A program made the position numbers and the translations under genes. A stretch of 33,891 bases of DNA from Acidobacteriota bacterium (lineage in GTDB: Bacteria > Acidobacteriota > Vicinamibacteria > Vicinamibacterales > Fen-181). Positions 3,804 through 21,529 of the stretch are shown piece after piece. Below the pieces are notes generated by a model that was not told where the DNA came from, did not search any database, and worked only from the letters and a program-made list of their open reading frames with translations. How positions within the stretch are numbered: position 1 is the first letter of the stretch; the number at the start of each line of letters is the position of its first letter. The stretch spans positions 1 through 33,891 of the forward strand of contig JANYLG010000179.1 of the NCBI GenBank assembly GCA_025363775.1, written 5' to 3'.

Positions 3804-5132
3804 ATGAATCAGGCGTCGATCGACATCGCCGGACGGTTCGCTGCCGTGCTCCTGCTGGTGTGCGCCAACGGCTTTTTCGTCGCGGCCGAATTTGCGCTCG
3901 TCACGGTGCGAAAGACGCGAATCAACCAGTTGATTGCAGAAGGGAATCGACGCGCGATCGGGGTGCGCGACGCGATTGCCGAGCCGGATCGCTTCATCGC
4001 CGCCACCCAGGTCGGCATCACCATGGCGAGCCTGGCGCTCGGCTGGGTCGGTGAGCCCGCTGTGGCGAGATCGATCGAGCCGCTCCTGGCGTACCTGCCG
4101 ACCGAGTGGGCGCGGGTCGGCGCCCATTCCATCGGGATCGGCATCTCCTTCGCCTTCATCACCTCGCTGCACGTCGTCGTGGGCGAACTGGCGCCGAAGA
4201 CGATTGCGCTCCAGTACGCCGAGAAGACCGCGCTGCTGGTGACAGCGCCCACCCGCCTCTTCATGACGGCGCTGTGGCCGTTCATCGCGTTGCTCAACGG
4301 TCTCGGCACGCGGCTGGTCAGGATGCTCGGCCTCCGGGCGCCGAGCCGCCACTCGATGGTCCACTCCGAAGAGGAACTGAAGATGCTCGTGACCGCCAGC
4401 CAGGAAGCGGGCGTGCTCGAGGAAGACGAAGAGCAGATGCTCCATCGCGTCTTCGGCTTCGGCGACCTGACCGCGGGCCAGGTGATGGTGCCGCGCACCG
4501 AGATGAACGGCATCTGGGCGGACGCCACGCTGACGCAACTGATCGAACTGGTGTCGCGCCAGCCGCATCCGTGGCTCCCGGTGTACGGCAATGGCCTGGA
4601 CGACATCCTCGGGTTCCTCCACGTGGAGGATGTCTTCCCTGCGCTCAGTCAGCCGCCCGCGCAGTTTCGCGTCACCGATTACCTGCGCGAGGCCATGACC
4701 GTGCCCGAGACACTCAACGCTGACGACGTGCTCGAGGAGATGAGGCGCCACGGGACGCACCACGCGGTGGTCATCGACGAGTACGGCGGGACGGCCGGCC
4801 TGGTCACGTTCGAAGGGCTGATGGAGCGAATCGTCGGCGAGGTGGGCAGCGAGTTCAACCCGGGTCGCACGAGGATCTCGGTGCTGCCTGACGGGTCGGC
4901 CCTGATCGATGGCCTGGCGCTGACCACCGACGTGAACGTCCAGTTCGGCCTGCACATCGACGAAGACGTGTATACGACCGTCGGGGGATTCGTGCTCGGC
5001 CAACTCGGTCGCCGCGCACGCCTGGGCGACCGGGTTGAGGTCGAAGGACGCACGCTGCGCGTCGAAGCGCTCGACCGCCTCCGGGTGGCGCGCGCCTACC
5101 TCTCCGGCCCCAGACGGGGTCGGGAGGAGTAG
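3804..5132 (+). CDS. CNNM/CBS/CorC-HlyC family membrane protein
   Basis: 442 aa. The order is a CNNM (DUF21) transmembrane domain (about 1-195) opening with the family signature around NGFFVAAEFALVTVRKTR, a paired CBS module (about 215-340; DEYGGTAGLVTFEG is typical of the second CBS), and a C-terminal CorC_HlyC domain (about 350-435). Family members are often annotated as hemolysins, but the better-supported roles are magnesium/cobalt efflux or ion homeostasis in the inner membrane, with CBS domains sensing nucleotides. The gene is full length for the family. It converges on the P-type ATPase gene with only 21 bases between stops, and has its own likely promoter. Confidence 0.9.
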   Translation: MNQASIDIAGRFAAVLLLVCANGFFVAAEFALVTVRKTRINQLIAEGNRRAIGVRDAIAEPDRFIAATQVGITMASLALGWVGEPAVARSIEPLLAYLPTEWARVGAHSIGIGISFAFITSLHVVVGELAPKTIALQYAEKTALLVTAPTRLFMTALWPFIALLNGLGTRLVRMLGLRAPSRHSMVHSEEELKMLVTASQEAGVLEEDEEQMLHRVFGFGDLTAGQVMVPRTEMNGIWADATLTQLIELVSRQPHPWLPVYGNGLDDILGFLHVEDVFPALSQPPAQFRVTDYLREAMTVPETLNADDVLEEMRRHGTHHAVVIDEYGGTAGLVTFEGLMERIVGEVGSEFNPGRTRISVLPDGSALIDGLALTTDVNVQFGLHIDEDVYTTVGGFVLGQLGRRARLGDRVEVEGRTLRVEALDRLRVARAYLSGPRRGREE

Positions 5133-19982: not shown

Positions 19983-20138
19983 GCTCCCGTATTGTAGTCC
20001 AGCGCCACGAGGGCAGGTGGCGCGGAACGATGGGGCGGTCCCGCGCTGGGGTGTACTATGGGTCCCGACTGCGCGAAGTTTCCGACGTCCTGAAAGAGAA
20101 ATCATGATGACGCGGTTGACTGTCCTCGGAGGAGACGC

Positions 20139-20480
20139 ATGATCAAACCGGTGTTCTACTGCAAGCCCACGTGAACGACCTGCCGCAACGCCAGAAGTTA
20201 TCTGGACGAGAACGGCATCGACGTCGAGTTCAAGGATATCGTCAAGGATCCACCACCGCACGCGTTCCTCGAGAAGCAGGTCGACGAAGAGCGGTTCGTC
20301 GAGTTCCTCAGCAGGCGCAGCCCGGTCTGGAAGGAGCGGCCGCTTCCGACATCGAAGAGGCAGGCCATCGACCTGATGCTCGAACAGCCAAACCTGATCA
20401 AGCGCCCGGTCCTCATCAAGGGCTCTCGGGTCGTCTTCGGGTTCGATAAGGCCCAGTACGAGGCACTGCTGAGAAGCTGA
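20139..20480 (+). CDS. ArsC/Spx-family selenoprotein with Sec at the catalytic cysteine (UGA codon 12)
   Basis: 113 aa counting selenocysteine. ATG follows GGAGGA (20128-20133). Codon 12 is TGA (20172-20174); reading through gives KPT-U-TTC-RNA, a U-x-x-C motif at the position where ArsC has its catalytic Cys12 and Spx-type proteins have CxxC. The remaining 100 codons run without interruption to TGA at 20478-20480. They match the ArsC/Spx/YffB family: RSYLDENGI after the active site, and near the C-terminus LIKRPVLIKG with GFDKAQYEALL. A SECIS-like hairpin begins straight after the TGA. Likely role: thiol/selenol oxidoreductase or arsenate-reductase-like enzyme; the substrate is unknown. Ordinary gene callers would miss it or call it a pseudogene. 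C8 is a second cysteine before the motif. The selA/B/C/D machinery is not in the window. Confidence 0.87.
20176..20220 (+). promoter_or_regulatory. Bacterial SECIS element (bSECIS)
   Basis: The apical stem CCAGA/TCTGG (20191-20195 with 20201-20205) closes a five-base loop AGTTA, with G at loop position 2. The loop starts 21 bases after the TGA, inside the usual 16-37 base window. A second stem TGCCG/CGGCA (20181-20185 with 20213-20217) and a short CGA/TCG pair (20176-20178 with 20218-20220) lie below. The whole element is also coding sequence. Expected to recruit SelB with Sec-tRNA. Confidence 0.8.
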
Positions 20481-20575: not shown

Positions 20576-21529
20576 ATGGTGCGTGTGGGCACCTCTGGCT
20601 GGAGCTACCCGTCCGGCCGCGGGACCTGGAACGGGATCTTCTATCCGCCGGCGGGGGCGGGGGGATTCCGGGCAGGGGACGAGCTGGCCTACTACGCCGA
20701 ACACTTCGACACGGTGGAGGTGAACTCGACGTTCTATCGGCCGCCGACGGCGGCCACCACGGCCCGATGGGTCGCGCAGACACCGGCGGGCTTCGAGTTC
20801 TCCGTCAAGCTCCACCAGAAGTTCTCGCATGTCATGGCGGTCGGCCGGGGTGCACCACCGCTGCCACTCGCGGAGGCGCGAAGAGGATCGGCGCTGCCCC
20901 GGCCGACACAGGCCGACGCGGACGAGTTCCGGGCGGGCCTGGACCCGATGGCCGCAAGCGGCAAGCTGGGCGCGGTTCTGGTTCAGTTTCCGGCCGGCTT
21001 CCATCACGATGGGGAGACGCTGGCCTACCTGAGAGGGCTGCTCGGCGCCTTCAAGGACTACCCGATGGCGGTGGAACTGCGCCACCGATCCTGGAGCGAC
21101 GCGGCTGCGGCCACGCTCGGCCTCTTCGACGAGTTCCAGGCCGCGTGGGTGCAGATCGACGAACCAAAGTTCCGTCTGTCGATTCGGCAGGATCTTGCGC
21201 CGAACATCGAGCGCTTCTACTACATGCGCCTGCACGGCCGGAACGCCGCCCAGTGGTGGTCTCCGGAGGCCCCGGAGGACCGCTACAACTACCTCTATTC
21301 GACGGAGGAGTTGCGGCCGTTTGCCGAGGTCGCGTCCGCCGCCGGCTCGAAGGTGCGGAAGGCGTACCTCTACTTGAACAACCACTTCGCGGCGAAATCG
21401 GTGGTGAATGCCACCGTGCTCAAGCACCAGCTCGGACAACCGGTGACCGGCGAGTACCGACCCGAGCTTCTCGAGACCTACCCGGTTCTTCAGGAGATCG
21501 TCCCGCCACAGTCCCGCCATCTCATCTGA
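20576..21529 (+). CDS. DUF72 family protein (TIM-barrel, YecE-like)
   Basis: 317 aa from the ATG at 20576 (MVRVGTSGWSYP), preceded by GGGGAAAGGG. DUF72 hallmarks are GTSGWSY near the start, FDTVEVNSTFYRPP, FEFSVKLHQKFSH, VLVQFPAGF, AVELRHRSW and YLYLNNHF near the end. These are spread along a TIM-barrel of normal family length. Function is not established; a nuclease or DNA-repair link has been suggested for some members. It follows the selenoprotein gene by 95 bases on the same strand. A short insert rich in Ala/Pro/Arg (about 93-120) is larger than in many homologs. Confidence 0.88.
   Translation: MVRVGTSGWSYPSGRGTWNGIFYPPAGAGGFRAGDELAYYAEHFDTVEVNSTFYRPPTAATTARWVAQTPAGFEFSVKLHQKFSHVMAVGRGAPPLPLAEARRGSALPRPTQADADEFRAGLDPMAASGKLGAVLVQFPAGFHHDGETLAYLRGLLGAFKDYPMAVELRHRSWSDAAAATLGLFDEFQAAWVQIDEPKFRLSIRQDLAPNIERFYYMRLHGRNAAQWWSPEAPEDRYNYLYSTEELRPFAEVASAAGSKVRKAYLYLNNHFAAKSVVNATVLKHQLGQPVTGEYRPELLETYPVLQEIVPPQSRHLI

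Follow-up and report, generated by a model that had tools for sequence, protein, structure and literature searches.

Introduction

Selenocysteine (Sec) in proteins of the ArsC/Spx type is not without precedent. "Arsenate reductase 2" selenoproteins, with an ArsC_Spx domain (cd03032) and a UxxC motif, were described in 2008 from the Global Ocean Sampling (GOS) metagenomes (PMC2398784), and a 2026 review places this selenoprotein class under the curated model NF041106 (PMC13188914). The first-pass annotation of the locus reported here had mentioned Sec forms of several thioredoxin-fold families from metagenomic surveys and had doubted how well the present one was described; for UxxC proteins of the ArsC/Spx type this doubt is answered by the 2008 report and NF041106. 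In the prokaryotic selenoproteome papers that were compared, no description of this family from Acidobacteriota appears. Literature searches at the title and abstract level, for selenoprotein with ArsC/Spx and for Vicinamibacter with selenocysteine, returned nothing relevant; the neighbourhood paper of Haft and Tolstoy (2025) lay outside the comparison.

The locus lies in a window (the whole stretch of DNA that was analysed) of 33,891 nucleotides, contig 113 of an assembly of 3.79 Mb that is 83% complete. The source is a bacterium of soil or groundwater, placed in the order Vicinamibacterales of the Acidobacteriota. The features discussed below are the following:

20128..20132, + strand: GGAGG, ribosome-binding site seen in the sequence, with the ATG 6 nt further on
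20139..20480, + strand: gene for a predicted Sec-containing ArsC/Spx-fold protein of 113 residues including Sec (profile matches, relatives in the order, predicted fold)
20172..20174, + strand: UGA codon 12, putative Sec codon of a U-T-T-C motif (TGA in 30 of 30 aligned relatives of the order, Cys in other relatives)
20191..20205, + strand: putative bacterial SECIS core hairpin CCAGA-AGTTA-TCTGG, its loop beginning 21 nt past the UGA (covariation, break in codon bias, loss in the Cys form)
20576..21529, + strand: DUF72 (PF01904) gene, conserved neighbour and possible partner (Pfam, 191.8 bits; the start at 20576 is a guess in a frame open from 20504)

Results

Reading frame and position of the UGA codon

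With TGA read as U, the conceptual translation of 20139-20480 is MIKPVFYCKPT-U-TTCRNARSYLDENG...LIKRPVLIKGSRVVFGFDKAQYEALLRS, and the N-terminus of the product reads MIKPVFYCKPTUTTCRNAR. The TGA of codon 12 is the sole internal stop of the frame, and the terminal stop is also TGA. In the alignment, U12 and C15 take the places of the two Cys in the CxxC of Spx-type members, and relatives with Cys at the first of these positions exist. The first-pass annotation had claimed that this TGA is the only interruption of an ArsC/Spx frame, that it stands at the catalytic Cys of the family (UTTC) and that the gene has a good ribosome site, and in all three respects its description was accurate.

Conservation of TGA and exchange with Cys

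Homologues were searched for in 162 Vicinamibacterales genomes (E <= 1e-10). They were found in 48, and 42 of these carry an in-frame TGA. The position of the TGA could be read in 40 of the 42 genomes (G027 and G050, being fragments, were left out), and it was codon 12 in every case, in the 30 aligned sequences as well as in 10 more. The motif KPTUTTC is present in 29 of the 30 aligned relatives and KxTUTTC in all 30. The presence of the gene is patchy: three of the four genus-mates of the window's genome (G040, G041 and G042) gave no homologue at E <= 1e-10. SelB and tRNA-Sec are nevertheless present in G041 and G042.

An alternative is that an ordinary Cys protein underlies the TGA, which would then stem from a sequencing error or a nonsense mutation; metagenome-assembled genomes may contain errors, and a Cys form does exist within the order. 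However, the same TGA is common to about 40 genomes from independent assemblies, which excludes a sequencing error, and the frame beyond it is intact and the stem that follows it is conserved; the probability of this explanation is close to nil.

The residue at codon 12 is TGA-encoded or Cys, as expected for Sec, and not an unrelated residue. The single full-length close relative without TGA (L075/L083) has Cys there, and its genome (G038) is placed in the same genus as the Sec-bearing G037. Relatives from Neomarinimicrobiota and Bacteroidota also have Cys at the Sec position. In the rest of the phylum, Sec forms occur in four more family-level groups (f33, f39, f51 and f78) and Cys forms in others. 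The tree requires at least five Sec/Cys changes, with many of its forks poorly resolved, and the exchange seems to have occurred several times.

Two divergent relatives deserve mention. One homologue with TGA (L084, G122:C2:19793-20119) carries a TAG 12 codons further on, and a pair of its stem is broken; in its genome, which is 97% complete, SelB was not found over the cut-off and tRNA-Sec is present. It is possibly a decaying selenoprotein gene. An ArsC-like relative in the Bacteroidetes MAG DBS2-1.bin144 (L079) has CGT and then TGA at about 3989-4000, that is, Cys first and TGA at the second Cys position, and could be either a CxxU form or a pseudogene.

The SECIS hairpin

The first-pass annotation had also placed a SECIS hairpin after the TGA. 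In the window sequence alone the hairpin signal is weak. The fold of the single sequence has an MFE of -18.8 kcal/mol over 61 nt (z = -1.8), and a perfect-stem hairpin equal or better was obtained in 93 of 2000 synonymous randomisations. As single-sequence folding is weak, the proof of a SECIS element rests on comparison across relatives, and there the claim was decisively upheld by perfect covariation. Among 36 non-redundant sequences, codons 19 and 21 end in A and T in 25, in G and C in 11 and never in a mixed pair (Fisher p 1.7e-9, a value that ignores relatedness). These third positions are largely synonymous, so the link is not explained by the protein. Of 1081 third-base pairs examined, none comes near this one save codons 22/58; that perfect correlation was discarded, as it reflects one divergent sequence that differs at both codons.

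Codon usage is disturbed at the same place. Third-position GC at codons 19-21 is 0.31, 0.17 and 0.31, against 0.67-1.0 in neighbouring codons, and the Arg of codon 19 is AGA or AGG in all 36 sequences as compared to 18 of 189 other Arg codons. RNAalifold found only the codon 19-21 helix. In a count of structure pairs, 99.3% of the cells were paired, and slid versions reached no more than 55%. The helix CCAGR-loop-YCTGG is kept in the intact Sec forms of the order, one of which has a single broken pair; the loop begins 21 nt past the UGA and has G at position 1 or 2. In the Cys form (L075/L083) the corresponding codons are CGG-GCG-TTT-CTC and the stem is lost. In distant Sec relatives the hairpin stands at a similar spacing and differs in sequence, for example AGCAAAA-GGTC-TTTTGCT and, in a sister, AGCAAGA-GGTC-TCTTGCT. 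Hairpins of different sequence were likewise seen in the Sec forms of other Acidobacteriota families (L111-L113, L117-L123).

The published model of the bacterial SECIS (bSECIS) specifies 4-16 bp, a loop of 3-9 nt with G among its first two nucleotides, a spacing of 16-37 nt and an energy limit of -7.5 kcal/mol (PMC13188914). The window hairpin, with 5 bp, the loop AGUUA and a spacing of 21 nt, fits this geometry. Its perfect stem reaches -4.5 kcal/mol, which falls short of the energy limit unless flanking pairs are counted; the perfect stems of most relatives lie between -4.9 and -11.2.

Selenocysteine machinery

It was found by profile search that the assembly encodes SelB (369 bits, cut-off 242), SelA (540 bits) and SelD (345 bits), along with a tRNA-Sec (62 bits) with the anticodon UCA, so that every component proposed for checking (selA, selB, selC and selD) is present. 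The tRNA-Sec gene is on another contig; in the window itself ARAGORN found no tRNA and the Rfam scan no Rfam family. SelD of this genome (L081, G000:C214:299-1225) is a selenoprotein too, with an in-frame TGA in SCSGU. Of the 42 genomes with the TGA, 7 gave no SelB over the cut-off; most of these 7 are fragmented or incomplete, and four of them clearly have tRNA-Sec. It should be noted here that SelB occurs in 113 of the 162 genomes of the order, and its co-occurrence with the gene is therefore weak evidence.

The UGA might in principle be read as another amino acid, either through readthrough by a near-cognate Trp or Cys tRNA or through a changed code. However, TGA terminates 7 of the 20 window genes, and thus there is no genome-wide recoding. 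The full Sec machinery in the genome, Cys as the alternative residue at codon 12 and a stem that fits SelB-dependent recoding also argue against such a reading, which is highly improbable. The complete machinery, the conserved TGA, the exchange with Cys and the covariation of the SECIS are together in agreement with the selenoprotein proposed at first pass, and insertion of Sec at UGA codon 12 is, as judged from the genomic sequences, almost certain.

Family, fold and function

When Cys is put in for the TGA, Pfam ArsC (PF03960) recognises the protein with 56.2 bits (cut-off 24). Against TIGR01617 (Spx/MgsR/ArsC-related) it scores 74.8, with the cut-off at 75.05 and the best relative at E 4e-26. 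The predicted fold (pLDDT 92.8) matches the ArsC-related 3gkx, YffB (1rw1) and Spx.

These matches raise two functional alternatives. The selenoprotein could be an Spx-type regulator that binds the C-terminal domain of the RNA polymerase alpha subunit and senses oxidants through U12/C15. The best PDB matches by sequence are Spx (3l78), TIGR01617 is approached within a fraction of a bit (as given above), and Spx R60 is conserved. In contrast, G52 of Spx is required for the alpha-CTD contact (PMC2801614), and its column here holds R, N, H, D or T and never Gly; the contact residue Y263 of alpha is said to be absent from Gram-negatives (PMC2801614); and the Spx models NF002459 and NF009210 score far under their cut-offs. 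A role of this kind is unlikely.

A Sec-dependent arsenate reductase would be in line with the ArsC family fold and with Arg60 and Arg89, which are invariant in 30 sequences. However, the arsenate reductase model TIGR00014 gives 40 bits where 106 are needed, and the genes adjoining the selenoprotein gene code for DUF72, QueC and radical-SAM proteins, with no ars genes. In E. coli, ArsC has a third catalytic Arg, which seems to be absent here and was also counted against this activity; the activity is distinctly unlikely. Probably, then, the protein does not act as an arsenate reductase, nor as an Spx that binds RNA polymerase.

The DUF72 neighbour

Enough sequence to look for a DUF72 motif was present at 25 related loci. 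The motif lies downstream in 23 of them, the Cys form included, and in 22 it is within about 230 nt. No DUF72 motif was found near the gene in the other Acidobacteriota branches examined. The conserved downstream gene suggests a partner.

Discussion

The observations at this locus are best explained by a genuine bacterial selenoprotein, and we regard this explanation as very probable. SelA and SelD would load tRNA-Sec(UCA) with selenocysteine, and SelB would bind the hairpin just past UGA codon 12, so that Sec is inserted and translation does not terminate. The product, presumably translated in the cell in this way, would be a thioredoxin-fold protein (ArsC/Spx/YffB) with a Sec-Thr-Thr-Cys redox pair, in which the selenolate is most likely the attacking nucleophile and Cys15 the resolving residue. 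Its likeliest role would be that of a small reductase of the glutaredoxin/thioredoxin type, and the DUF72 protein encoded downstream may be its partner. The inferred reductase role is slightly favoured. That this unnamed Acidobacteriota subfamily forms a Sec-dependent redox system with DUF72, the ArsC-like selenoprotein acting on DUF72 or its product by reduction or regulation, is a tentative and rather speculative proposal.

The finding adds a conserved selenoprotein branch that escapes the curated NF041106 and is common among Acidobacteriota of soil and groundwater. Where TGA is taken as a stop, gene callers would cut the gene short or overlook it. The gene pair offers a handle on DUF72, a protein family of unknown function. 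A single order has both Sec and Cys forms, and the latter has lost the SECIS, which makes the exchange of Sec and Cys directly testable.

Among known systems, the closest curated family is TIGR01617, a Cys family with CxxC at the same position; the window protein differs from it in having Sec in place of the first Cys, and Spx G52 is not kept. The best fold matches are the YffB/ArsC-related structures 1rw1 and 3gkx (TM-score 0.80-0.84), which were deposited as ordinary ArsC-family proteins and share about 30% identity with the window protein. The GOS "Arsenate reductase 2" selenoproteins share, by their description, the ArsC/Spx-type domain and UxxC with it. NF041106 (ArsC_rel_Se_1) is likewise ArsC-like with Sec first in UxxC (UTSC). 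In the order it is found only in six genomes of family f14 (L098-L103), none of which has the gene of the window, and in the tree its sequences lie on a very long branch. A UxxC Sec protein of the ArsC/Spx type had been reported in 2008 and is curated as NF041106, yet the window protein scores 20.1 bits against that model, below its cut-off of 85; the kind is therefore known, and the branch of the window lies outside NF041106.
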